Part shown: positions 1-10,550 of the stretch, in pieces
Numbering within the stretch: the stretch's first letter is position 1
Layout of the letters: the number at the start of each line of letters is the position of its first letter
Assembly (NCBI GenBank): GCA_937915515.1
Contig: CALGIK010000289.1
Span: forward strand, 1 to 10,550
Length of the DNA: 10,550 nucleotides
Origin: an uncultured Clostridia bacterium
Lineage (GTDB): Bacteria > Bacillota > Clostridia > Christensenellales > CAG-314
Direction: 5' to 3'
Notes under the pieces: generated by a model
The model's input: only the letters and a program-made list of their open reading frames with translations
The model's database searches: none
What the model was told of the DNA's origin: nothing
Program-made: the position numbers and the translations under genes

Positions 1-272
1 CCTTTTGTTGACGGGGCGGTTGATTTAAATAGAATATCGTCATCAATTTTTACATCGACAATATCGCATCTTTTGGATACGACAAAATCACCGACTTTTA
101 TATCGGGCTCCATACTTGGCGTAACAACAATATGAAAACTATATCCAAAAAAAGAGGGGGCATTGCCGGTAATACGGCAACCTAATACATACATTAAAAG
201 GCAAAAAACAACGGCGAAAAAACACCAGGATAATACTGTCGCTATTTTATTTTTTTTGTATTGTTTATTCAT
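1..272 (-). CDS. Second signal peptidase I (S26 family, SipW-like), C-terminus beyond window
   Basis: This is the N-terminal 90 or so residues of a membrane serine protease that removes signal peptides outside the cytoplasmic membrane. After a short basic start (MNKQYKKNK) comes one hydrophobic segment (about residues 10-31), then the S26 catalytic serine box TPSMEPDIKVGDFVV, with Ser in SME as the predicted nucleophile. The general base (Lys or His) would lie beyond the left edge, so bacterial or SipW/ER type cannot be decided. The ATG (272-270) overlaps the TGA of the upstream DUF2357 gene as ATGA, which fixes the start and implies translational coupling. The protein is clearly different from the other signal peptidase in this operon: its serine box is the canonical SMEP, whereas the other has SMEW. 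Cysteine-rich for its length (four in 90 residues). Family call is firm; substrate is unknown but probably a product of the same operon. Confidence 0.85.
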   Translation of the reverse strand, partial: MNKQYKKNKIATVLSWCFFAVVFCLLMYVLGCRITGNAPSFFGYSFHIVVTPSMEPDIKVGDFVVSKRCDIVDVKIDDDILFKSTAPSTK

Positions 273-1945
273 ATCTCATTGTTTTTTTGTACTGTTATAA
301 TATCGTCTGCTTTTGTGTCTATTGATTGTAGTGCAGCTTGTTTTTGCATTGCCTTTTTGCGTAAAAATTCCGCACGCTTTTCGTTAAGCAAAGCAATACG
401 CTCTTTGCGTTTTTGTTCCTCACGGCTTTTTAATAAATCCGCATAAGATAAAGCTTCAACCTTAATGGTTTTTGTTTTTACGCCTAAATCATTTGTTGTT
501 TCTGCTTTTTTATCAGCTTTTTTAATACTCTTTTGCTTTTTTGTTTCTTTTTTTGCATCTGATTTTTCTACTTCCCGTTTAAGTTTATCAAGTTTGATTA
601 ATTCCTTAGCTTCCTTTTTAAGAGCTAAGCTTAACTCCTTTTCTTTTTGTAAATTCAATAGTCTTAATCTGTCCGTATAATCTTTTTGTCTGTCATATTG
701 TTGCTTCTTTTTTTCTATCGCAGTGGTTAATACTATTGCTTCATCTGTTTGATTATCTTGTTTAAGATATTCGTTATAAATCGCATCTGCCAGCTGATTA
801 AATTTAATAAATACTGAAGGAAAATTTTTGCGCAGTTTATTGATATCGGTACTGCCGTTTTCGGTTACGCTGTTTTCCTGCCAGCCGCTTAAAAGTTTTC
901 GCACCTTATCAAAAAAGAATTCGTTTATCTCAAAATCAGTATCTTTTTCGCCCATCAAGTTAATGTCGGGCGCTTTTATGCGTTTATTCAATTTATAACG
1001 CTTAACTGTTTTATCGCTGTATTCCTTTTTTTCATAATCCTCAGTTTTGGCTACTTGATTTTTAAGCAGCGTCAAAAAACTAAGCATAGCGAGCATTGTA
1101 AGATCATCAAAAAAATCCGTATCAACGGACAATTGTTTTTCGGCTACTTCGACGCTGTAGCCTAACTGTGCGTAACCGCTTATAAATAAGAATAATTTAT
1201 AACAGTTAGAATAGTCCTTATCGTTAATTATGAGATTAGTCTTAGAAATAGGCAAAACAACAGGCTTGGCTTTGTTGACGGTTATATAAAAATCCGTCAT
1301 CCTTAATATGTTGATGCGCTTACGCAAAACTTCAATTTGATTAAGTAAGTCGCTGTTACGTTTTAACATAACTATATTCTTGCTGTCGGTGCGCACCGTT
1401 ATACCCAAATCAAAAGCAAAATCGGCTTTTCCAAATTTGCAGTCATCGGTAAATTTAAGTTTGATCACGTCTTTGCTGTTGACGTTTTGCTCAACGTAAT
1501 TATATCTCTGTTCAATAAAAGTGACCAGACGGTTTATCAGCGTTACAACAAAGCGGTTTTCGTAAATAGCCAAATCTTCCGCCATATATGTGGTTAAAAT
1601 TCTGCTCGGAATTATTTCGCCTTCTTCGTTGCTGCCTCTTATATTCATTGTGTGACTGGCTAAATGTCTAATGGATTCACTGTCAATTTTCCGCGCTTTT
1701 TCTACCGGTACAACCTCTTTTTGGTCTATAATAAACCTACGGGGATTTTTGCATATCTGTTCGATACTGTGCAAGTATTTTGTAATGGTTAAAATCCACT
1801 CATCATCAAGATAAAGGCTTTCGGCGGTTAATATCTGGTTAACGTAATTGTTGCCGTTATTAACCGCATTCAAAAAACCTTGCATCATTTTTTCGTTGAT
1901 ATTAAGTTGCGCAATATACTTGCTTAAAGTATTGTTGATATCCAT
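269..1945 (-). CDS. DUF2357 (McrC-partner type) protein with lysine-rich coiled coil in place of a nuclease
   Basis: 558 residues, no signal peptide or membrane segment, so cytoplasmic. The N-terminal half resembles the DUF2357 domain found in partners of McrB-like ATPases: a PRRFI box near residue 68, then VPVEKARKIDSESIRHLASH (about 80-98), and the typical helix DLAIYENRFVVTLI (about 124-137). Family members commonly carry a PD-(D/E)XK nuclease domain after this. Here I see no such motif; from about residue 400 to 540 the chain is almost entirely charged and helical, rich in Lys, Glu and Gln, with runs such as KKETKKQKSIKKADKKAE, and looks like a long coiled coil or nucleic-acid/acid-polymer binding tail. 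It follows the AAA+ gene by 48 nt, in the order expected for McrB then McrC. No Shine-Dalgarno sequence is visible just upstream of the ATG; the only purine-rich stretch is inside the intergenic hairpin. Function is inferred as an adaptor for the ATPase, not a restriction nuclease. Confidence 0.72.
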   Translation of the reverse strand: MDINNTLSKYIAQLNINEKMMQGFLNAVNNGNNYVNQILTAESLYLDDEWILTITKYLHSIEQICKNPRRFIIDQKEVVPVEKARKIDSESIRHLASHTMNIRGSNEEGEIIPSRILTTYMAEDLAIYENRFVVTLINRLVTFIEQRYNYVEQNVNSKDVIKLKFTDDCKFGKADFAFDLGITVRTDSKNIVMLKRNSDLLNQIEVLRKRINILRMTDFYITVNKAKPVVLPISKTNLIINDKDYSNCYKLFLFISGYAQLGYSVEVAEKQLSVDTDFFDDLTMLAMLSFLTLLKNQVAKTEDYEKKEYSDKTVKRYKLNKRIKAPDINLMGEKDTDFEINEFFFDKVRKLLSGWQENSVTENGSTDINKLRKNFPSVFIKFNQLADAIYNEYLKQDNQTDEAIVLTTAIEKKKQQYDRQKDYTDRLRLLNLQKEKELSLALKKEAKELIKLDKLKREVEKSDAKKETKKQKSIKKADKKAETTNDLGVKTKTIKVEALSYADLLKSREEQKRKERIALLNEKRAEFLRKKAMQKQAALQSIDTKADDIITVQKNNEI

Positions 1946-1964
1946 TTTTCGTTTTTATTAATAT

Positions 1965-1987
1965 GGGAGTTGCTTTTATCAACTCCC
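1965..1987 (-). other. Perfect 8-bp hairpin between the AAA+ and DUF2357 genes
   Basis: GGGAGTTG and CAACTCCC flank a 7-nt loop in the 48-nt gap between the two genes. No U-tract follows, so it is not an intrinsic terminator. The 5' arm holds GGGAG, the only Shine-Dalgarno-like bases near the DUF2357 gene, though it is about 35 nt from the ATG. It could tune translation or protect an mRNA end after processing; this is inference. Confidence 0.55.
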
Positions 1988-1993
1988 TTACAT

Positions 1994-3553
1994 TTAAATG
2001 TTACGCTGCAATTGCTTGATAAAATCCTGACACAGTTTAAACTTTCCGACACCAAATTTTTTGTCCAAAAAAGCGGAAAGTTCGTTTAATTCTTTTGTTA
2101 AAAAGGGCAGGTTGAGGGAAACGAATTTCCTAAGAATTTTACTGAAAACCATAAAATCAAGCCCTTCTGTATCGGTGCCTCCAAGCCCCATATACACCGG
2201 AACAAAACGCTTTATCTGTTTAATAATACGGTTTCCGAAAGCAATTTTAAATTTATCTTGTATAAACACGTCAAGTTCCGTCAGTGTCTTTATTAGAAAG
2301 TCGCTTATATGATTTTCCTTTGCGGCTAAATCAAAAAGATTTTCGAGATAATCATACGAACAGGGATAATTTTCCGTCATCAATGCATCAAAATACGCCG
2401 CACGGTCATTTAACTCAATGGCAATGGCACGGTCGTATACCTTGTCGGTTATGGTAAACGTGCTGTCGTCCTTATTTGCCGTACCGATAAAAAACAAATT
2501 TTGCGGCACTATGATTTTGCCGTATACCAAATTTTTGGGGTCAGTAGGCAGATTGGTAGGCACTATATCAATTTTCCATTCCGCCGTATCGGGCATTTCC
2601 ATAATGGACAAAAATTCCGCAAAATAGTATTCGATACGGGCTAAGTTCATTTCGTCCAAAACAATAAAATTAGGGTCGTCACGCCAAGTAGCTTCGTAAA
2701 GGTTAGCCAAAAAATCTGTTTCGTTAAATTTTTTTGTAAACTCATTAAAATAGCCTAAAATGTCGGCTCTGTCACGCCATGACGGCTGAACAGATACAAT
2801 ACCGGCATTGTTGTCAAAAAACTTCGCCATAGCATAGGGCAAACTGGTCTTTCCCGTGCCGGAAATACCTTCCAAAATAATTATTTTGCCCGTACCCATA
2901 CCCGCTAAAAACAACCTTATGGTTTTTGGAGAATAATAAAGATGCAATTGACTTGCCGCAAAATTAATAAATCTATCGACAATTTCGGGTAGAGTAAGCA
3001 AATCGTCTTGGTTCATAAACACATAATGTCGGTTGTCGCCGTATTTTTTGTCTATGTCAGCTAATTTTGCAAATCTCTCCGCTTCCGTCTTAGAAAGAGC
3101 AGCACCGTCTGTCGCTGCAATAGGTGCATTTTTAGGAGCGTGTTCTTCAGTAAATTCGTTTCCGCCGCTAAAGTCAGCATTGACTTTAAGCGCAAATATA
3201 CGGTTTTTGTCACGGACAAGCTCCTCAGCTTGTTCTTTCAATCGGGCGATTTCCTCAATCAGCTCGTCTTTTTCTACCTCTTTAGTACGGGTAAAAATAA
3301 AACGGCGAAACAATTGCGCTATCTTATATATTAAAAAAACAATAAAAGTGAGGTTTATAAGCGTTACAAGTATCATCAGTAACCAACCCCACACGTCTAA
3401 ATTGGGTAACACTTTAATTAAATCGGAAAAATATTTTGATATATCCGTGCCGAAAAATTTGGCAAAAGCCAAAGCTATGGACTTAATAAATGCCCATATA
3501 TTGGCAAAAAATTCGCCTAAAAATTTTATGTAATACTCCGAATATACCGTCAT
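1994..3553 (-). CDS. Membrane-anchored AAA+ ATPase, McrB/MoxR-like
   Basis: 519 residues. The N-terminus has amphipathic or hydrophobic stretches (about 10-35) and a clear membrane segment (about 54-80, WGWLLMILVTLINLTFIVFL), then a basic stop (RRFIFTRTK) and a short charged coiled coil (about 91-120). The AAA+ module follows: Walker A GISGTGKT (229-236), the McrB-type box VQPSWRDRADILGYFN (255-270), Walker B FIVLDEMN (296-303) and sensor 1 with the McrB-like GTANKDDS (357-364). The usual ALRRRF-type box is replaced by KVYDRAIAIEL. McrB proteins normally start with a soluble DNA-recognition domain; that domain is absent and a membrane anchor stands in its place, so the ATPase probably works at the inner face of the membrane with the DUF2357 protein as its partner. 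Start ATG has AGGG about 10 nt upstream. Sits between a signal peptidase and the DUF2357 gene. ATPase call is firm; the McrB affiliation is probable; the substrate is unknown. Confidence 0.85.
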   Translation of the reverse strand: MTVYSEYYIKFLGEFFANIWAFIKSIALAFAKFFGTDISKYFSDLIKVLPNLDVWGWLLMILVTLINLTFIVFLIYKIAQLFRRFIFTRTKEVEKDELIEEIARLKEQAEELVRDKNRIFALKVNADFSGGNEFTEEHAPKNAPIAATDGAALSKTEAERFAKLADIDKKYGDNRHYVFMNQDDLLTLPEIVDRFINFAASQLHLYYSPKTIRLFLAGMGTGKIIILEGISGTGKTSLPYAMAKFFDNNAGIVSVQPSWRDRADILGYFNEFTKKFNETDFLANLYEATWRDDPNFIVLDEMNLARIEYYFAEFLSIMEMPDTAEWKIDIVPTNLPTDPKNLVYGKIIVPQNLFFIGTANKDDSTFTITDKVYDRAIAIELNDRAAYFDALMTENYPCSYDYLENLFDLAAKENHISDFLIKTLTELDVFIQDKFKIAFGNRIIKQIKRFVPVYMGLGGTDTEGLDFMVFSKILRKFVSLNLPFLTKELNELSAFLDKKFGVGKFKLCQDFIKQLQRNI

Positions 3554-3605
3554 TTTCAGCTTACCCTGTTTTTGTTGTATGCCGCGTTTTTGTTATTTTA
3601 TTAAA

Positions 3606-3645
3606 AACGGCAAACGTCAACTTTGCGGTCAAGCTTTTTGCCGTT
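3606..3645 (-). terminator. Candidate attenuating hairpin between signal peptidase and AAA+ gene
   Basis: AACGGCAAA and TTTGCCGTT form a perfect 9-bp stem around a loop of about 22 nt, and the stem runs into TTT then AATAAAAT on the minus strand. The 140-nt gap is the longest within the left block. The U-tract is short and the loop long, so a weak terminator or mRNA-processing stem that lowers expression of the ATPase genes relative to the secreted proteins is more likely than a full stop. The loop contains TTGAC twice as a direct repeat. Confidence 0.4.
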
Positions 3646-3693
3646 ATCATAAGCATTTGTAAAAGCAAAAAAGGTGTTTGCCTTGCTATTTAT

Positions 3694-4428
3694 TTATTCG
3701 TCGTGAGAAACACTGTTTGGCGTATCATCTTGCGCTTCTGTATGCTTATCCGTTTGATTAATACCCATCTCTCGCATTAATTCCTGACGGATTTTTTCCT
3801 TATCGTCAACGGCTTTTTCGGTCTTGTAGATTTTAAGGTTTTTAAAAAGCATTATAGCGCAATAAATTAAAAGCAGCAGCGACGGCAAAAATACCACTAA
3901 GCCAAAACCTACAGGCGTTTGGACAAACAAAACAACAGACCCTAAACCGTTGATGTGAGCGCCTCGATAAACTGCTATGACATCGTCTTTAGCTGAAACT
4001 TGAAGGCTGTCATTGATAAGAGAGTTGTCGCCTTTTGTGGTATAAAAAACTCCATTTGCACCCATATTGTCTACACCTACAATACGGTGAGTGACAAGTA
4101 TCGGTACGCCTTGTTCCGTTGTCCTAAAAATGATTACGTCTCCTTCTTTTAATGAAGCTCGCTCCTCTTGCGTTTTTAATACTTTACTAAAAAGAAACGC
4201 CCCTTTTTTAAAGCTTGTCTTTTTGTATTCTGGATGAGTCGAATTATAATCCTCATTCCACTCCATAGAATTTGTCTTAACAGCAAAAGTGGCAGAACCA
4301 AAAAAGTTGACATAATCCTTGCCTATCGAACCTATTGCACTTGCGACAACAAGGATCAAAACAATACATATTAGTATTGCTATAACGTTTAATACAACAG
4401 AGCCGACTTTAACCTTTGTTTTATCCAT
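3694..4428 (-). CDS. SipW-like signal peptidase I (S26B, Ser/His type)
   Basis: Membrane serine protease that would cleave SipW-type leaders of TasA-like proteins on the outer face of the membrane. 244 residues from the chosen ATG. Two membrane segments bracket the catalytic domain (about 8-34 and 167-195). The catalytic serine is in the box KTNSMEW (Ser54); the general base position is VTHRIVGV (His114), where typical bacterial enzymes have lysine, and the third box is TTKGDNS with Asp134. The Ser/His arrangement is that of SipW and of archaeal and ER signal peptidases. The cytoplasmic tail after the second segment is charged (about 196-244). A TTG eight codons upstream is in frame, but the ATG at 4428 has GAGAG 6 nt before it and begins at the usual distance from the first membrane segment, so I chose ATG. 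It follows the larger TasA-like gene, the likely substrate. Confidence 0.9.
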   Translation of the reverse strand: MDKTKVKVGSVVLNVIAILICIVLILVVASAIGSIGKDYVNFFGSATFAVKTNSMEWNEDYNSTHPEYKKTSFKKGAFLFSKVLKTQEERASLKEGDVIIFRTTEQGVPILVTHRIVGVDNMGANGVFYTTKGDNSLINDSLQVSAKDDVIAVYRGAHINGLGSVVLFVQTPVGFGLVVFLPSLLLLIYCAIMLFKNLKIYKTEKAVDDKEKIRQELMREMGINQTDKHTEAQDDTPNSVSHDE

Positions 4429-4434
4429 ATGTTT

Positions 4435-4440
4435 CTCTCT
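4435..4440 (-). promoter_or_regulatory. Ribosome binding site of the SipW-like peptidase
   Basis: AGAGAG, 6 nt ahead of the ATG at 4428. It supports that start over the TTG at 4452, because it would lie inside the longer reading frame and the TTG itself falls at the edge of a hairpin with no purine-rich site close by. Confidence 0.5.
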
Positions 4441-4451
4441 TTTTTGTCGCA

Positions 4452-4476
4452 AAGTGGCAGACCAGGTCTGCCACTT
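4452..4476 (-). other. Perfect 12-bp inverted repeat between TasA-like and peptidase genes
   Basis: AAGTGGCAGACC and GGTCTGCCACTT are separated by a single base. In RNA the inner pairs would open to give a 9-bp stem with a 7-nt loop. No U-tract follows in either direction, so it is not an intrinsic terminator. It stands just after the gene for the presumed major secreted subunit (46 nt downstream of its stop) and just before the peptidase ribosome binding site, a common place for a stem that protects the 3' end of an abundant structural mRNA or damps downstream expression. A dyad protein-binding site is an alternative. Confidence 0.6.
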
Positions 4477-4522
4477 GTAGCGGCAATATATTTATTAAAC
4501 TGTTTTGCAGGTTAATATCTTT

Positions 4523-5794
4523 TTACTTACTGAAAAATTCCAAAGATGTGCGGATGGTTTGATCAAAAATACTGTCGAAGCAGTCGGCGTCCCAACCGTC
4601 AATCCAAATTTTTATGCTTAACGTGCCTTTGTAAATTGTTGAAGTACCAACTTGAGAAAGCGTCAACATTTTCATAAGTGCTGATTGATAATTATTTCCG
4701 GCGTTTTCGACAGTGACTTGGTTTGCAATTGGGAAGGAATACCCGGTACAATCTTTTGCCGCTTCACCCGTAAGGTTATTTTTATCGTTGTAATAGTTTA
4801 TAGCGATATTGGTATCGCCGGCTGTGCCGCCTTGTTTATAAATAGATTGTTGACTAAAAGCATAGTCTCCTTCCTGTAAATTGTTAAGATTGCTGCCTTC
4901 GGCTGCCGTCAAAGCTTTATCAGGTTCCCAAATGTTTTGTAAAGTATTGTTTGACCAAAAACCGATTTTTAATGCGTCGGAAGCATAAGCCTTAATTATA
5001 GGGTCTGTAATGTTGCCTTCGCCACCGGCAAGCAAATATGCTGCTTTAGTGAGAGTGGTGCTCCAAAGGTCAACGCCTAAAGTGATATCCGCTCTGCCAA
5101 CGGTTTCTACAATACTGTCACTTATGTTTGCGTAAACGCTGTAAGGATTGTTGCCCATAAAATACAGATTAAATTCGTAATACTTAGCGTTATATTGGTA
5201 TACTATATTTTCTGAAATATAGGTTTGATTTGCTGTCTCTTCAGCTATTCTTGACGTTTTTGTCCAAATTTTGTCAGTGCCGAAACTCACATCGCCTACA
5301 ACGCTTATTTCCGTCAAATCTAATGCGCTTTCACCTTTGTATAGCTTGATGTTGCAGTTTTTGAATAAGGAAAAATTTTCTGCTGTAACATAAGCAGTAA
5401 TTTCTTTAGCTTCGCCTTCCTCATAATAGACTTTATATTGACTGTATGTACCAACTTGTATAAAACCGCCGTTTATACCTAATACAGTCCCGTCAATGTC
5501 TCTAAAAGCGTAATCTGCCGCCCCTGCGCTGTCGCTGTAACTGATAGCGTCCAGCTGCGGAATTGCTTGATAAACTCCTAAAATCTCGGAGGTGGTCAGA
5601 GACGTTTTGTATGTGCCATCAATACCGCTTGCCGAAATATACAAGCCGTCGGTTGTGGTTACCGTTAAGTCAAAGGAACCCGTAGTGGGATTATTTGACA
5701 TTGTAAACCAAGCGTATGCTGAAGTAGCTACTAAGCAAACAGCTACAAACAGCACAAAGATTGATACAGAAAGTCTTTTTACAGAATTCTTCAT
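4523..5794 (-). CDS. TasA/camelysin-like secreted protein with SipW-type leader
   Basis: 423 residues. Residues 1-28 form a signal peptide: basic start (MKNSVKRL), hydrophobic core (about 9-23) and ATSAYA, followed by WFTMSNNPTTGSF; this AYAWFT junction is typical of leaders cut by SipW-type peptidases, and such an enzyme is encoded next. The mature part is acidic, rich in Thr, Ser, Asn, Gly and Tyr, and reads as alternating beta strands, as expected for the jelly-roll fold of TasA-like matrix or fibre subunits; it is longer than TasA itself (about 260 residues). Near the C-terminus IWIDGWDAD (396-404) matches a motif in the neighbouring 231-residue protein. Two cysteines (in DCTGY and ADCFD) could pair. 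Start ATG has a strong AAAGGAG 9 nt upstream. Predicted to be the main extracellular subunit of the operon; no sortase motif is present. An alternative is a surface adhesin on the same fold. Confidence 0.8.
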   Translation of the reverse strand: MKNSVKRLSVSIFVLFVAVCLVATSAYAWFTMSNNPTTGSFDLTVTTTDGLYISASGIDGTYKTSLTTSEILGVYQAIPQLDAISYSDSAGAADYAFRDIDGTVLGINGGFIQVGTYSQYKVYYEEGEAKEITAYVTAENFSLFKNCNIKLYKGESALDLTEISVVGDVSFGTDKIWTKTSRIAEETANQTYISENIVYQYNAKYYEFNLYFMGNNPYSVYANISDSIVETVGRADITLGVDLWSTTLTKAAYLLAGGEGNITDPIIKAYASDALKIGFWSNNTLQNIWEPDKALTAAEGSNLNNLQEGDYAFSQQSIYKQGGTAGDTNIAINYYNDKNNLTGEAAKDCTGYSFPIANQVTVENAGNNYQSALMKMLTLSQVGTSTIYKGTLSIKIWIDGWDADCFDSIFDQTIRTSLEFFSK

Positions 5795-5803
5795 TTTTGT
5801 TTA

Positions 5804-5810
5804 CTCCTTT
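5804..5810 (-). promoter_or_regulatory. Strong ribosome binding site of the TasA-like gene
   Basis: AAAGGAG, 9 nt before the ATG, the best Shine-Dalgarno match in the left block. This fits a protein made in larger amounts than its neighbours. Confidence 0.75.
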
Positions 5811-5811
5811 A

Positions 5812-5840
5812 ATTATATATTTCTTTTTAAGAATAGTCAA
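5812..5840 (-). promoter_or_regulatory. Possible internal sigma-A promoter ahead of the TasA-like gene
   Basis: TTGACT (5840-5835), 17-bp spacer, TATAAT (5817-5812): one mismatch from consensus with ideal spacing. If used, it would drive the larger secreted protein and everything after it without the riboswitch. Against it, the start point would fall within or just after the AAAGGAG site, giving a leader under about 15 nt, and the region is AT-rich, so a chance match is possible. Confidence 0.4.
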
Positions 5841-5880
5841 TATGTAAAACGTTTATTGTTAAAAATATGTGAAATTTTTA

Positions 5881-6576
5881 TTAATAACCGTTAAAGTTCA
5901 TCACCATTTTAAGTCTGCCGCCTTTTAAAAAATCCACTCCTTGTGCATCCTCTCCCTCAAGCCAAATAACAACCGTAAATTTAATTACTGCGCCGCTGTT
6001 GAAGTTTATATACTCTTGCGACATAACCACCTTTTCGGAGACAAAAGGTATAGTATTATATCCTCCGCACGTCTCAGGCATGCCTATATTTTCACCTTCC
6101 TCCTGAGCTTTTGCATAGATATTGGCAGTTTGATTGTCGGTTATCACCATCACCCTGACTGCGCTGTCTACCTTTTTTGTTACGTCGATTATGTCAATGG
6201 CAGCAACAACGTCAACTGCCGTATCCGAATAATTTTTTAAGTAAAAGGTGTAAGCTATGTAACGGCGGCGATAATTGTCATTATCACTGCCATCTTTAAA
6301 ACTATTTGTATCGGGCAGCCAATTAAAGGTACATAAATGCATTTCGGGCAGACCTTTTGCATACAAGTATGCACTGGGCTCATAAAAATCGGGAGTAGTG
6401 CTTAATGAAAGCTTTACTTGACTTTCTTCCGTTATGTTAATGACAAAATTACCTGATTTTGTGCCGTATACGGTAAGTCCGATAAAAACTAGGCTCAACA
6501 AAAAGGTAATAAGCAGGATTAAAGTACTGTACCTTCTTATTTTTAAACGTGATTGCCATTTTTCTACCTTTTTCAT
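5881..6576 (-). CDS. Short membrane-anchored TasA-like protein, first gene after the riboswitch
   Basis: 231 residues. A basic start (MKKVEKWQSRLKIRR) is followed by one hydrophobic segment (about 17-38), then TKSGNFVINI, a strand typical of the first lines of TasA/SipW-dependent proteins. The segment may be a cleaved SipW-type leader or a lasting anchor; there is no clean small-X-small site, so anchoring is possible. The rest is beta-rich, including RRRYIAYTFYLKNYSD (about 103-118), and ends in IWLEGEDAQ (204-212) plus a final strand, the same C-terminal motif as in the next gene. Two cysteines (LCTF, ETCGG) could form a disulfide. Its position first in the operon and its small size recall TapA-like or minor subunits that anchor or nucleate a fibre, but there is no recognisable TapA homology; the role is inference. 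Start: ATG with GGTG 5-8 nt upstream, directly downstream of the riboswitch terminator. Confidence 0.75.
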   Translation of the reverse strand: MKKVEKWQSRLKIRRYSTLILLITFLLSLVFIGLTVYGTKSGNFVINITEESQVKLSLSTTPDFYEPSAYLYAKGLPEMHLCTFNWLPDTNSFKDGSDNDNYRRRYIAYTFYLKNYSDTAVDVVAAIDIIDVTKKVDSAVRVMVITDNQTANIYAKAQEEGENIGMPETCGGYNTIPFVSEKVVMSQEYINFNSGAVIKFTVVIWLEGEDAQGVDFLKGGRLKMVMNFNGY

Positions 6577-6586
6577 ATTTCACCAT

Positions 6587-6619
6587 AAAAAAAAGTTGCC
6601 ATTTATTTTAATGGCAACT
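6587..6619 (-). terminator. Intrinsic terminator of the c-di-GMP riboswitch
   Basis: AGTTGCCATT and AATGGCAACT make a perfect 10-bp stem with a 6-nt loop (AAAATA), followed by seven more U after the closing pair. Its 5' arm (6619-6610) includes the GTTGCC that serves as the 3' strand of the aptamer, so the terminator and the ligand-bound aptamer cannot form together. It ends about 10 nt before the first gene. Confidence 0.9.
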
Positions 6620-6690
6620 GGCAACCGTAGTTAAAATTAACCCTTAGGTCCTGTAGCTTTGCGTCACAGACTTTCGTCTGTTTTGCCTTT
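6613..6690 (-). promoter_or_regulatory. c-di-GMP-I (GEMM-I) riboswitch aptamer
   Basis: The minus strand carries the class I cyclic-di-GMP aptamer signature in order: GGCAAAA, with G6687 matching the ligand-contacting G20 of the Vibrio Vc2 aptamer; a 6-bp hairpin ACAGAC-GAAA-GTCTGT with the GAAA tetraloop at 6675-6672; the invariant GACGCAAAGC (6665-6656), whose A6660 matches the intercalating A47; a tetraloop receptor formed by CCTAAG (6648-6643) and TACGG (6629-6625), close to the classic 11-nt receptor; and TTGCCAGTTGCC, in which C6614 matches C92. Compared with common members, the stretch between the two TTGCC elements is one base short. Because C6614 and its strand also form the 5' arm of the terminator, ligand binding should block termination and turn the downstream operon on. 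Confidence 0.93.
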
Positions 6691-6719
6691 AACTTCTCAC
6701 TCTTATATTATATACGCAT

Positions 6720-6749
6720 ATATTAAAACAAAAATTATCTTTTTGTCAA
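6720..6749 (-). promoter_or_regulatory. Sigma-A-like promoter of the riboswitch operon
   Basis: TTGACA (6749-6744) is a perfect -35 box; TAATAT (6725-6720) lies 18 bp downstream and matches four of six -10 bases. Transcription would start near 6713, about 23 nt before the aptamer, giving a leader of about 137 nt. A second TATAAT-like stretch lies a few bases further on (around 6705-6712) but is badly spaced. The rest of the 6750-6825 gap is AT-rich with no convincing terminator for the kinase gene and holds a tandem 8-bp repeat (ATACAAAT twice, 6811-6826). Confidence 0.72.
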
Positions 6750-6825: not shown

Positions 6826-7908
6826 TTAATAATCACAAACGTCTGTGCTTATTTTTTTTATAGGTAATTTTTTATAAGGATAACGGCTATTTAAAAGTTT
6901 AAGATATGCATTCTCTAACGGTATCCATTCGTTTTCGTAGCGCTCGTATTTTTCCATGCCGTCTCGGGAAATAATACGACGGCGCTGTTCCGTCTTGTTT
7001 ACGCTTAATATTACTCCCAAATTGTACAGATCACTGACATAAGGATGCAGACAATAACACCCTTCCACTATATTTATCCTTGAAGGAATAGCTTTTTTGG
7101 TAACAAATTTGTCACTGCCGCAATCGTATCTCTCATAATCAAAAGCATCGCCGTCCTTCATCTTAATCAGAGTTTGACGCAGCCGTTCATAATGAATATT
7201 ACCGCCTATTTCTTTAAGTCTATCAGAACTACGCATAGATATAGGCAAAAAGAAGTCGTCGGCAGATAATACATTGCATTGATAATAATTGCTTAAAACT
7301 TTAGCAAAATAACTTTTTCCCGCACCGCTGTTTCCGTCGATAGCTACCGTTACAGTAAGATTAGTATTAAGTAAGCTCTCAATAGTATCAATTATGTCAA
7401 ACAAAAACCAAAAATCACGGTTAACCACTCTGTAAGAAGGATAATAGTTTAACTTTACGGCAGAAGAATGAGACAACAACGGACAATCATTTGATATATA
7501 CTCGTTAATATACCTTTTTACTGACAAATAAGGTAAATTAATCTTTTTTTCTTTTACAAGATTAGTAAAAACAGACAGCTTATTTAAAAAATCTTGTTGG
7601 TTTCCGTTATTAAGCAAATTACTTTTAATAAAAATTTGGTTTAAGGTTATTAAATTCTTTTCAGCACGCACAAAAGGGCGTATATTTACCCGCGAAATAT
7701 TCAAAAAATCGTCTGATTCGTTTTCGTCGATGCTTTTTTGCGTAACAGAAACATTGGCCTCGCTAAGTATACGGCGCAGGCTTTCGTCTTCATCCTTAAT
7801 AAAATGCCCGCCCATAAATTCACTTTGAAAAAGAAGCTTAATATAATCTTGAGTACGCATTAAGGGGTAAAGTCTATAGAAATTTAATATTTGCTGACAA
7901 ATATCCAT
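6826..7908 (-). CDS. Uridine-kinase-like P-loop kinase with an extra N-terminal domain
   Basis: 360 residues. The C-terminal half (about 185-345) has the uridine kinase/phosphoribulokinase fold: Walker A DGNSGAGKS (191-199), the substrate-side acidic pair in SADDFFLP (215-222), the strand end NIVEGCY (279-285) as Walker B equivalent, and an arginine-rich lid EQRRRIISRDG (307-317). Such enzymes transfer phosphate from ATP to a nucleoside or a sugar-like substrate in the cytoplasm. The N-terminal part (about 1-175) is not in standard uridine kinases (about 210 residues in total); it begins with YPLMRTQDYIKLLFQSEF and MGGHFIKDE, and I do not know a function for it. The ATG shares one base with the nrdR stop (TAATG), so the two are translationally coupled and share a transcript. 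Coupling to a ribonucleotide reductase regulator fits a nucleotide-related role, but the substrate is unproven. Confidence 0.75.
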   Translation of the reverse strand: MDICQQILNFYRLYPLMRTQDYIKLLFQSEFMGGHFIKDEDESLRRILSEANVSVTQKSIDENESDDFLNISRVNIRPFVRAEKNLITLNQIFIKSNLLNNGNQQDFLNKLSVFTNLVKEKKINLPYLSVKRYINEYISNDCPLLSHSSAVKLNYYPSYRVVNRDFWFLFDIIDTIESLLNTNLTVTVAIDGNSGAGKSYFAKVLSNYYQCNVLSADDFFLPISMRSSDRLKEIGGNIHYERLRQTLIKMKDGDAFDYERYDCGSDKFVTKKAIPSRINIVEGCYCLHPYVSDLYNLGVILSVNKTEQRRRIISRDGMEKYERYENEWIPLENAYLKLLNSRYPYKKLPIKKISTDVCDY

Positions 7909-8390
7909 TAATCTTTTGTTTTTCCGTTATCGTTTTCTGCCGGTTGAAAAAGTTTTTTTATCTCATCAAAAAATGTATTTCTGTCCTTAAATTGACGGTA
8001 AACAGAAGCAAATCTGATGTAAGCCACTTCGTCAATATTTTTTAAGCCATCCATTACGAGTTCGCCTATCTCCTTGCTTGTCACTTCCTGCTTTAAGCTG
8101 TTGTGAAGCGTCTTTTGAATATCGTCTACAAGCAAATCAATCTGCTCCATAGAAACAGGACGTTTTTCGCATGATTTAAGTATCCCGTTCTTCAATTTGT
8201 TGGCATCAAACAGCTGACGGTTTCCGTCGTTTTTTATTACGAGGATCTTTGATTCCTCTATTGTTTCGTAAGTAGTAAAGCGTTTTCCGCAGCTTGTACA
8301 TTCCCTTCGACGGCGGATAGCATTGCCTTCCACATACGGACGGCTGTCTATCACCTTTAAATCGGTACATCCGCAATATTTACACTTCAT
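7908..8390 (-). CDS. nrdR: Transcriptional repressor NrdR
   Basis: 160 residues, full length for the family (about 150-160). NrdR senses ATP/dATP and represses ribonucleotide reductase genes. The N-terminal zinc ribbon has Cys3-Cys6 and Cys31-Cys34, with the basic DNA-contacting stretch IRRRREC (25-31) and the typical KRFTTYE (36-42). The ATP-cone follows (about 46-136), with [18 protein letters not shown] at its start and the usual [12 protein letters not shown] near its end (about 125-136). ATG start with AGAGGT about 5 nt upstream. It lies 26 nt after the glycoside hydrolase gene and overlaps the kinase gene by 1 nt. No ribonucleotide reductase gene and no clear NrdR box are visible in the window. 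Confidence 0.97.
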
Positions 8391-8416
8391 TTTTACCTCT
8401 GTTTTTTCTTAAATTT

Positions 8417-10550
8417 CTACGCACAAATAAAGGAGAAAGATGCTGTCTTTCCTGCCGTCAGGTTTATTCCTTTGACACATACATTTACGTCTGTAACAAG
8501 TGTATATTCTCCGTTGCTCTTTTTAAGTCTTTTTACGTTATCGGGTAAATATAGGTCAAAAGAGGCGCTCTTTTTTGCTTTGATGTCAACATTAAGAATA
8601 TTCTTTTCGGTTAAAGAAATATTAACTGTCATAGCGCCGACGGCGTTTAATCCTTCCACCTCGATGTTTTTCCATCCCTCGGGTATGCAAGGCAATATTT
8701 TTATCACGCCTGCCTTAGAATATAACAGCATTTCTTGTATAGCGGCGGCAAACGCCATATTTGCCGCCAACTGCGGGGAAGACCAAACATCAAAACCTAC
8801 TACGCCATTGTTGCGCCAATCGCAATAGGCTAATGCAAGGTTATTTAAACTGCAGTAATTTATGGCATTAGTTAAGCATTCTACCGCTTGTTGACGTTGC
8901 TGCAAGCGGATAAAGACACGAGCTAAATTTATTAATGTTAATGCGGTTTGACGATTGCCGCTTTCCGACAGTTTTTTTCGTGCGCTGATTAAATATGGCT
9001 TTATCGCTTCCTCGGCGCTCAAAAAATCAACTTCTTTTGAGCCATAAGCGGAGTACATTGCAGCTACTCCCGCAGTTGTGTAATCGCTTATTGGTTGTGC
9101 GTAGTCTTTAAGCGAGCCGTCGTTTTGTATGGACAGATTAGGTATTTTGGTAAGCATATCCTTCCATTTTTCGATTTCGTCAAGGTACATATTTGCGCTG
9201 TTTGCGCCTTCGATAATGTTGGATAAAAGCTGACGAGCTAAACAAAAATCAATTGCGGCATCTTTATTTATGTATATGCCTTTGGTTTTTTCACCTTCCG
9301 CCGACATAGGCGAATACGATGGGTTTGCTTCGTAAAAACCCATTCTGTCTAATTTAAAAAATTCCTCATAAAATTGCGCTACCTCCTTCATAAAAGGCAA
9401 AGCACGGTTTTTTAAAAATTTTGTATCGCCAGTATACAAATAATAATCATAAAAAAGTGAAGCAATAATCCCAGCACAGCCGGTAAAATGCAAAACGTCG
9501 GGGTCGGAAGAACCTACACGCGCAGTCACGCCCGCAGTAACGGAAGGCAAGAATAAACCCCGCACACCAAAAAGACGCATTGCATTGTCACGCATATCGG
9601 GCTTATTTTGTTCGGCGTAAACAAAGAGAGGCTCTAATAATTCCAGCATATCTCCCGCAAAGACGGAAACGTAGGACGTCGGTGTTTTAGTTTCAAAGCT
9701 TACGTTGTTTTCGACAGCTTTAAAACTGCCGTTAAATAAACCGTTGGGTAAAACAATTTTGCCTTCCTTATCGGTACTGCAGTAAAGAAGATATCTGCCG
9801 TAATTCCACATCTTTTCGGCAAGTTTAGCACTTATTTCCCCTTGAGCACATTGCGATAATAGTTCCTCTGTCCAATTATCTGAGTTTTCTAAATTGATTG
9901 ACACGCTTTCCATAGCTTTTTGATGAATTGCGATATGCTTTTTTATCAATTTGTCGTAGGTATCTTTGTTTAACACTAATAATGATTTTAGATTTTTAAA
10001 TTCCTTCTCTTTGTAAGAATTAACAAATGTTTTTAAAACAATAAGTACGCTGTTTGCGCCTTTAATAAACAAACTATTTTCCCTAATCTCCATACTGCCG
10101 CCGTAAAACGTGACTTTTGCGACAGCGCCGAATTCCGTTCCGTCATCGCTGTGAGCGCAAAAATACATAAAATTAGGTTCATATTTTGTAAAAATACCGT
10201 CTGGAAGTGCAGACATCCCTACGGGTGTACGTGCATTGATTTTGTCCAACATATTTAAGGAAAGTTCGACGTCAATTTGTTTTTGACCTGTTTTTGTAAG
10301 CTCGCAAACAATATAATCGTCTGCTCTTGACACAAAAGCATTGCGTAAAAAGCGGGTAGAACCGTCGGCAAAATTGACGGTTATCTCGCCGCTGCCTGTA
10401 TTAATTATTCTCGAATAATCTTTAGGTGTTTTTTCGGCTTTATAGTTAATGTTTAAAACACATAACGGTAAAGAGCTAAAAGGCTGCGGACGAAAATTTT
10501 TTTGAATAAGCGCTTTTGTAAAAAGTGTTTGCGCTTCTTCCAAATTGTTT
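8417..10550 (-). CDS. GH95-fold glycoside hydrolase (alpha-fucosidase/galactosidase family), N-terminus beyond window
   Basis: At least 710 residues; the frame stays open to the right edge, and the TTG at 10543 is probably internal, since GH95 proteins have another 70-100 residues before this point. No signal peptide can be judged. Numbering from that TTG: the end of the N-terminal beta-sandwich shows KDYSRIIN and LRNAFVSRADDYIV (about 41-79); the alpha/alpha barrel shows GRYLLYCS and LPNGLFNGSF (249-274), matching RYLL...LPANLQGLWN of GH95, then ELLEPLF (301-307), TGCAG and YYLYTGDTKFL (354-377), NPSYSP (407-412); the C-terminal part shows QLAANMAFAAAIQEMLL (591-607) and ILPCIPEGWKNIEVEGLNAVG (about 616-636). 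GH95 enzymes remove alpha-L-fucose or L-galactose from glycans. By eye, residues thought to be catalytic in GH95 (the NIN pair, the Glu in SPEN, the Asp in QIDGN) are not kept here, so activity or substrate may differ. Family assignment good; function open. Confidence 0.8.
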   Translation of the reverse strand, partial: NNLEEAQTLFTKALIQKNFRPQPFSSLPLCVLNINYKAEKTPKDYSRIINTGSGEITVNFADGSTRFLRNAFVSRADDYIVCELTKTGQKQIDVELSLNMLDKINARTPVGMSALPDGIFTKYEPNFMYFCAHSDDGTEFGAVAKVTFYGGSMEIRENSLFIKGANSVLIVLKTFVNSYKEKEFKNLKSLLVLNKDTYDKLIKKHIAIHQKAMESVSINLENSDNWTEELLSQCAQGEISAKLAEKMWNYGRYLLYCSTDKEGKIVLPNGLFNGSFKAVENNVSFETKTPTSYVSVFAGDMLELLEPLFVYAEQNKPDMRDNAMRLFGVRGLFLPSVTAGVTARVGSSDPDVLHFTGCAGIIASLFYDYYLYTGDTKFLKNRALPFMKEVAQFYEEFFKLDRMGFYEANPSYSPMSAEGEKTKGIYINKDAAIDFCLARQLLSNIIEGANSANMYLDEIEKWKDMLTKIPNLSIQNDGSLKDYAQPISDYTTAGVAAMYSAYGSKEVDFLSAEEAIKPYLISARKKLSESGNRQTALTLINLARVFIRLQQRQQAVECLTNAINYCSLNNLALAYCDWRNNGVVGFDVWSSPQLAANMAFAAAIQEMLLYSKAGVIKILPCIPEGWKNIEVEGLNAVGAMTVNISLTEKNILNVDIKAKKSASFDLYLPDNVKRLKKSNGEYTLVTDVNVCVKGINLTAGKTASFSFICA

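Follow-up and report, generated by a model that had tools for sequence, protein, structure and literature searches.

Gene organization of the locus

We analyzed the whole of a 10,550-base contig (CALGIK010000289.1, our G000:C289; below, the window) from an uncultured Clostridia bacterium whose draft genome comprises 1.36 Mb in 331 contigs and is 82.6% complete. All of the genes of interest lie on its minus strand, where a promoter-like site, an aptamer of the cyclic di-GMP (c-di-GMP)-I riboswitch class and a terminator are followed by genes for two exported fibre-subunit candidates that we call T1 and T2, a signal peptidase, an McrB-like nucleoside triphosphatase (NTPase), a DUF2357 protein and a second signal peptidase (Table 1). 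An initial annotation, made from the letters alone, had described a riboswitch-led operon of two exported proteins, two signal peptidases, an McrB-like membrane ATPase and a DUF2357 protein, and the window bears this description out.

Table 1. Features of the operon in the window (aa, amino acids; MFE, minimum free energy; pLDDT, predicted local distance difference test).
Feature	Position	Strand	Evidence or remarks
Promoter-like site TTGACA-18-TAATAT, immediately upstream of riboswitch	6720..6749	-	10/12 consensus match
c-di-GMP-I riboswitch aptamer	6610..6697	-	RF01051, 75.6 bits vs gathering score 35; G precedes GCAAA motif
Intrinsic terminator, 10 pairs and U run	6594..6619	-	MFE -14.8, z -3.7
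T1, 231 aa, exported, single-copy fibre-subunit candidate	5881..6576	-	profile kinship with T2
T2, 423 aa, exported fibre-subunit candidate	4523..5794	-	signal ...SAYAWF
Strong hairpin without U run, between T2 and signal peptidase 1	4452..4476	-	z -5.7
Signal peptidase 1, endoplasmic reticulum (ER)/SipW type	3694..4428	-	TIGR02228 above cut-off; NSM, THR, GDN motifs
Weak hairpin then U-rich stretch, between signal peptidase 1 and ATPase	3606..3645	-	z -1.7
Membrane-anchored McrB-like AAA+ NTPase, 519 aa	1994..3553	-	E. coli McrB match, motifs
NTPase transmembrane segment, residues 53-76	3326..3397	-	hydropathy peak in 76/76 complete relatives including window; profile alignment
Walker A, GISGTGKTS	2843..2869	-	76/76 complete NTPases; invariant in profile A1
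NxD signature, N360-K-D362	2468..2476	-	76/76 complete NTPases (73 by pattern, 3 by eye)
8-pair hairpin between NTPase and DUF2357 genes, without U run on minus strand	1965..1987	-	z -4.4
DUF2357 (McrC N-terminal-like) partner, 558 aa, long C-terminal helices	269..1945	-	PF09823, 39.2 bits; model pLDDT 79.4
Signal peptidase 2, first 90 aa, truncated by contig end	3..272	-	overlaps DUF2357 stop; intact in sister locus L024:3090-3761

Conservation of the operon

Relatives were collected with profile A1, built from 19 NTPase homologues; its search of the GTDB species genomes returned 432 relatives, of which the best 80 were kept with their flanks. Locus counts refer to the 79 loci with a recognised NTPase open reading frame (ORF), namely 78 fetched loci and the window. 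The order fibre genes, signal peptidase, NTPase, DUF2357, signal peptidase repeats among these best 80 of the 432, and with 432 confirmed relatives a unique or chance gene order is ruled out. A signal peptidase stands immediately before the NTPase in 69 of the 79 loci (a contig edge in 6, something else in 4), DUF2357 immediately after it in 74, and a signal peptidase immediately after DUF2357 in 55. Among the 49 loci with at least 5.5 kb of upstream sequence, a set that leaves out 29 loci that are too short and 2 without a called NTPase, T genes are present in 44 and an upstream riboswitch in 43; the co-occurrence of the ATPase/DUF2357 pair with signal peptidases, T genes and an upstream riboswitch, which the initial annotation proposed as a check, is found. 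Our ORF caller loses real genes to longer overlapping ORFs (no ATPase ORF was kept in L035, L054, L130 or L146), so the presence counts given here are lower bounds.

By record title, the best 80 relatives come from Clostridia, Christensenellaceae, Acholeplasmatales and other Bacilli, for the most part from metagenome-assembled genomes; Paracholeplasma vituli 92-19 and Peloplasma aerotolerans M4Ah, which has two copies, are the strains with names. The NTPase has at least 8,000 homologues; the top 120 listed show 96-100% coverage with the N-terminus aligned in nearly every one, and the closest named relative of the window NTPase, from an uncultured Clostridia bacterium (L024), is 85% identical across residues 62-519. 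In 20 hand-chosen stretches with diverged full-length NTPases (513-592 bits), the NTPase ORF was kept in 18, 17 of which have a signal peptidase, and a T-like or 'AW' signal protein occurs in 14 of the 20. Where NTPases align only from residue 53-178 on (18 stretches), a signal peptidase was found in three. At 6723-14660 of locus L123 (G034:C6:36000-52000), a more distant McrB-like/DUF2357 pair follows type IV pilus genes of the same strand at a distance of 262 bases; these genes encode a T2SSE protein with an MshEN domain, a T2SSF protein and a prepilin peptidase, with an N_methyl match slightly below cut-off.

Median gaps in the relatives are short (35 nucleotides from signal peptidase to ATPase, 16 from ATPase to DUF2357 and -4 from DUF2357 to signal peptidase), which fits a single transcript. 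In the window genome separate transcripts are conceivable, because the gap between T2 and signal peptidase 1 holds a strong hairpin and that between signal peptidase 1 and the ATPase gene is 141 nucleotides long and contains a weak one. The shared transcript of secretion and ATPase genes put forward in the initial annotation is therefore favored by the spacing in relatives and left in doubt by the window itself. The strong hairpin raises the question of whether it acts as an mRNA stabiliser or as an attenuator.

Upstream of the operon and on the same strand, positions 6826-10549 encode a kinase-like protein, an NrdR regulator and a GH95-family glycosidase truncated at the contig end. A sister genome (L110) has the same three genes in the same order before a tandem riboswitch and T1-T2.

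The McrB-like NTPase and its DUF2357 partner

E. coli McrB is the only sequence match of the NTPase in the PDB at E <= 0.01, and a Walker B pattern is present in 72 of the 76 complete NTPases. Like McrBC type IV restriction (E. coli McrB structures 6hz4 and 6ut6), the window combines an AAA+ NTPase with a DUF2357 partner; unlike it, the window system has a membrane helix in place of the DNA-reading domain and NxD in place of NxxD, and no nuclease was found in it. All 76 complete NTPases have NxD instead of the NxxD motif of McrBC restriction systems. No DNA-reading specificity domain was recognised on the NTPase, whose N-terminal part consists of the membrane segment and a charged helix, with no Pfam domain above cut-off; judged by eye, the charged helix that follows the transmembrane segment is probably a coiled coil. 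PADLOC matches the window NTPase (1994-3553) at 1.4e-41 to PDC-M26A, a candidate defence model.

PF09823 was found in 34 of 52 relatives of the DUF2357 partner at E <= 0.01, and a nuclease family at the same threshold (Pfam) in none of the 52, whereas homologues mainly in defence islands with nuclease domains would have counted against the reading in the initial annotation. The predicted structure of the partner has one strand of at least three residues after residue 190 and then long helices, including C-terminal ones at 409-482 and 495-557, an arrangement that is probably not a PD-(D/E)xK core. A hidden nuclease in the partner is thus rejected as far as the Pfam scan and the model can test it. 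McrC was not among the matches listed in a PDB fold search with the same model. Finally, Pfam found no protease domain in the NTPase or in its partner.

Fibre-subunit candidates and signal peptidases

T1 and T2 are related to each other, their profiles aligning with an hhalign probability of 99.0 over 208 columns. T1 occurs exactly once in each of the 44 loci in which it was recognised, and T2-like paralogues number up to five; this sorting leaves 4 of 139 T proteins unassigned. The best structural match of the T2 predicted model is the TasA fibre, and T2 looks like a TasA-like beta-sandwich in that model. The window's T1 and T2 have no Pfam or NCBIfam match above cut-off, and the T2 profile finds no PDB sequence at E <= 1; since there is no sequence-family match, the T proteins cannot be classed as TasA family by sequence. 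A homologue search with T2 gave two matches, one of them the window's own. Elsewhere in the window's genome, L118 (G000:C253) encodes at 3850-5745 two more T-like exported proteins of 288 and 341 amino acids with an FAWF signal, next to genes that, at a guess from their sequence, are rRNA dimethyltransferase-like and nucleotidyltransferase-like.

Signal peptidase 1 falls below the cut-off of the SipW family NF046067 (85.3 bits vs 190); its family scan was started at 4434, six bases early.

Riboswitch, terminator and promoter

The 5' arm of the terminator coincides with the final ten bases matched by the Rfam aptamer, and the bases AGUU (6619-6616) serve as the 3' strand of a helix in the aptamer as well as the start of the terminator arm (pairing read by hand from the Rfam alignment). 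Because this arm is shared with the aptamer helix, the bound aptamer and the terminator should exclude each other; ligand binding should then block termination, giving an ON switch.

Model R1 was derived from five of the riboswitches in these loci, with about 20 bases of terminator included. At E <= 0.006 it finds 100 matches, spread over the window and 56 loci and without exception on the strand of the operon; five weaker ones have E 0.8 or worse. An Rfam scan of the window and 16 loci confirmed RF01051 in 12 of the 16 (4/7 and 8/9 in two sets), and the remaining riboswitch calls rest on R1. A terminator-like hairpin follows 78 of 99 R1 matches (one match was too short); among random segments the count is 37 of 1000 and among upstream regions 26 of 679. 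R1 may inflate the first figure by favoring terminator-bearing matches. To be counted, a hairpin needed a 5' arm beginning 24-40 bases ahead of the point where the R1 match stops; in the window that point lies 20 bases past the Rfam aptamer. Three loci (L026, L028 and L033) have no RF01051 match; L028 has at 5064-5149 on the minus strand a Gut-1 RNA match (55.6 bits) at the place of the relatives' riboswitch before T1 but on the opposite strand.

Doublet and triplet riboswitches are frequent (L096, L103, L062, L098), as in the tandem c-di-GMP-I riboswitches of PMC4759541 and PMC9481103. As outlined in those papers, triple tandems are known and more digital, a sharper ON response has been proposed for them, and the described triplet precedes cspABCDE, whereas the tandems here precede fibre-like and giant exported-protein genes.

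The 100 R1 matches have at their putative selectivity base, placed by the Vc2 numbering, G in 73 (the window among them), A in 15 and C in 2 (one a partial match), with 10 not parsed. The matches with A are in L027, L030-L032, L034, L035, L039, L041, L043, L051 and five other loci. A single aptamer base is described as setting selectivity between c-di-GMP and cyclic GMP-AMP (cGAMP) in the parts of PMC9481103 and PMC6274999 that deal with it. With A in 15 of 100 matches, some relatives may therefore sense cGAMP or both ligands, and operons with A-type aptamers may respond accordingly.

The promoter-like site before the riboswitch is weak evidence, because such sites are no commoner in the window than in shuffles (35 vs 31.5). 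A candidate T2 promoter, TTGACT-17-TATAAT, matches the consensus at 11 of 12 positions and leaves little room, with about 18 bases between the end of its -10 hexamer and the ATG. Matches to GOLLD and ceN61 RNAs in the window are below gathering score and were taken as chance.

Co-occurrence of riboswitch and NTPase

In 297 genomes of the order, a sample taken without regard to kinship with the window, the NTPase profile matches 86 and RF01051 33, with both in 12; RF01051 thus occurs without an NTPase match in 21 of 33. Two comparisons use thresholds set after the lists were seen, and related genomes are not independent in either. Ten genomes have an NTPase at E < 1e-200, and all of these but G275 carry RF01051, vs 24 of the 287 others; in the 41 genomes of the family, RF01051 and an NTPase match of at least 53% identity occur in the same 5 and in no others (a partial match in G031). 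A riboswitch lies 1.4-8.5 kb upstream of the NTPase on the same strand in nine genomes (G000, G033, G040, G053, G081, G121, G252, G269 and G308; distances read by hand). In the five family genomes RF01051 is found at 12 places (tandems merged), of which four precede T1-T2, five precede an exported protein of at least 758 amino acids, one precedes small exported proteins accompanied by a signal peptidase of their own, and two are unclear.

Further riboswitches stand before giant exported proteins with the signal ...FAYYQF in L108 (G000:C269, 5853-8332; at least 768 amino acids) and L111 (G039:C107, 4783-13838; at least 2961 amino acids). L108 belongs to the window's genome, in which the signal sensed by the riboswitch would have this protein as a second target. 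Acholeplasmatales-type loci (for example L047, L069 and L096) have small exported proteins downstream of the core, often behind another riboswitch, and then a giant protein, which is still open at 1654 amino acids in L047 and has 2362 in L069.

A protein of our EAL/GGDEF cluster is present in 33 of the 49 loci with at least 5.5 kb upstream. Five of these proteins were scanned with Pfam; all five have EAL and three also GGDEF. Among the complete proteins of the cluster (35 long, 38 short), a pattern match alone shows a GG[DE]EF-like motif in 2 and 4 and an EAL-like motif in 21 and 24, respectively. Since the GG[DE]EF-like motif is scarce, the main role of the cluster may be that of phosphodiesterases or sensors.

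Relation to described systems

The combination of McrB/McrC with a signal peptidase is already known as CoCoPALM, an NxD branch of McrBC; Bell et al. 2024 (PMC11090510) gave it this name in one paragraph, linked it to signal peptidases and pilus assembly, and deferred it. The statement in the initial annotation that no system of this composition had been described therefore does not stand, although the main text of that paper gives no detail and has zero occurrences of the terms c-di-GMP, riboswitch, GGDEF, TasA and SipW. What that account shares with the window is an NxD McrB-like NTPase with a transmembrane and coiled-coil N-terminus, a McrC-like coiled-coil partner and signal peptidase neighbours; by the features tested, the predicted system of the window belongs with CoCoPALM and is not a restriction system. 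Beyond the published main text, we add candidate fibre substrates of a single-copy and a multi-copy type, a proposed cyclic-dinucleotide ON control, and the absence of a recognised nuclease from 52 partners. Besides Bell et al., none of the papers listed in our literature searches describes this operon by title or abstract start; subscription journals and preprints are outside this result.

The operon also resembles TapA-SipW-TasA of Bacillus subtilis, as far as it is set out in PMC9674648 and PMC10151520, in its exported, predicted beta-sandwich subunits, dedicated SipW-type signal peptidase and accessory subunit. It differs in that tapA-sipW-tasA has no NTPase or DUF2357, has one signal peptidase and is under SinR control. 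In the searched text of two TasA assembly papers the term 'ATP' is absent and no energy source is described.

A model for the operon, and its alternatives

We propose, with a probability of about 0.6, that the window carries a cyclic-dinucleotide-switched fibre-biogenesis operon of the CoCoPALM kind, in which a restriction-type motor has been re-used for surface fibres. The operon order, the riboswitch placement, the nuclease absence, the TasA-like fold of the T2 model and the L123 pair beside type IV pilus genes all support this proposal. In this model, c-di-GMP would bind the aptamer and block the overlapping terminator, turning the operon on. T1 and T2 would be exported via Sec and cleaved by two dedicated ER-type signal peptidases, and the freed N-terminal strand of each T2 would complete the beta-sandwich of the next in the manner of TasA, with the single-copy T1 as a possible initiator or anchor. 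The NTPase would form a ring that its N-terminal helix and stalk anchor to the membrane from the inside, and the nuclease-free DUF2357 protein, by homology, would stimulate it as McrC does McrB. Through NTP hydrolysis the ring would then work on fibre precursors held in the membrane, on the signal peptidases or on Sec, and so order or drive export and polymerisation.

The operon occurs both in Clostridia, which have a cell wall, and in the wall-less Acholeplasmatales. We give even odds to the broader idea that such loci encode an NTP-driven fibre machine in which a domesticated McrBC motor and two ER-type signal peptidases act on TasA-like and giant adhesin-like proteins, switched by single, double or triple riboswitches, and which would form a class distinct from the sortase, chaperone-usher, type IV and plain TasA routes. 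We know of no McrBC-like motor for archaeal bundling pili (7ueg).

The main rival, which we consider unlikely, is that the McrB/DUF2357 pair is a guard or defence module that protects the fibre-displaying cell, fibres being possible phage receptors, and is co-expressed within the fibre operon. The PADLOC match to PDC-M26A would fit such a role, and McrBC relatives are best known as restriction systems, with CoCoNuTs predicted to be RNA-targeting defence in the main text of PMC11090510. The lack of a nuclease family in the 52 partners and the single strand after residue 190 of the partner model argue the other way, as do the short gaps inside the operon. In addition, nuclease-less CoCoNuTs are said in PMC11090510 always to adjoin HEPN or other nucleases, whereas among the neighbours annotated here, which were annotated in part, it is signal peptidases, T genes and EAL proteins that recur.

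It is likewise improbable, and ranks after the guard module, that the ring serves turnover or quality control, extracting or remodelling misprocessed fibre precursors and signal peptidases in an FtsH-like way and not powering assembly. No protease domain was found in the NTPase or its partner, the neighbours having been annotated in part; the membrane helix and AAA+ motifs of all 76 complete ATPases, the two signal peptidases per operon and the up to five T2-like paralogues would nonetheless suit a machine of this sort. Very unlikely, finally, is that the NTPase/DUF2357 pair works in some other process of the envelope and only shares its regulation with the fibre genes. The pilus-associated pair of L123, the wide, hairpin-bearing gap before the window's ATPase gene, and L122, L124 and L150, which have two ATPase copies and no recognised T genes, might suggest this; against it stands the interleaving of signal peptidase, ATPase, DUF2357 and signal peptidase, which is kept across Clostridia and Acholeplasmatales loci.

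If the fibre-biogenesis proposal is correct, PADLOC PDC-M26A and like defence-finding tools may mislabel a fibre machine as anti-phage. CoCoPALM, which was named without a tested function, gains candidate substrates, a switch and two named strains in which it occurs, so that the question of its function becomes testable. TasA-like fibres would have an energised version under cyclic-dinucleotide control, and a motor family best known from DNA and RNA defence would have a second role in surface-fibre biogenesis.

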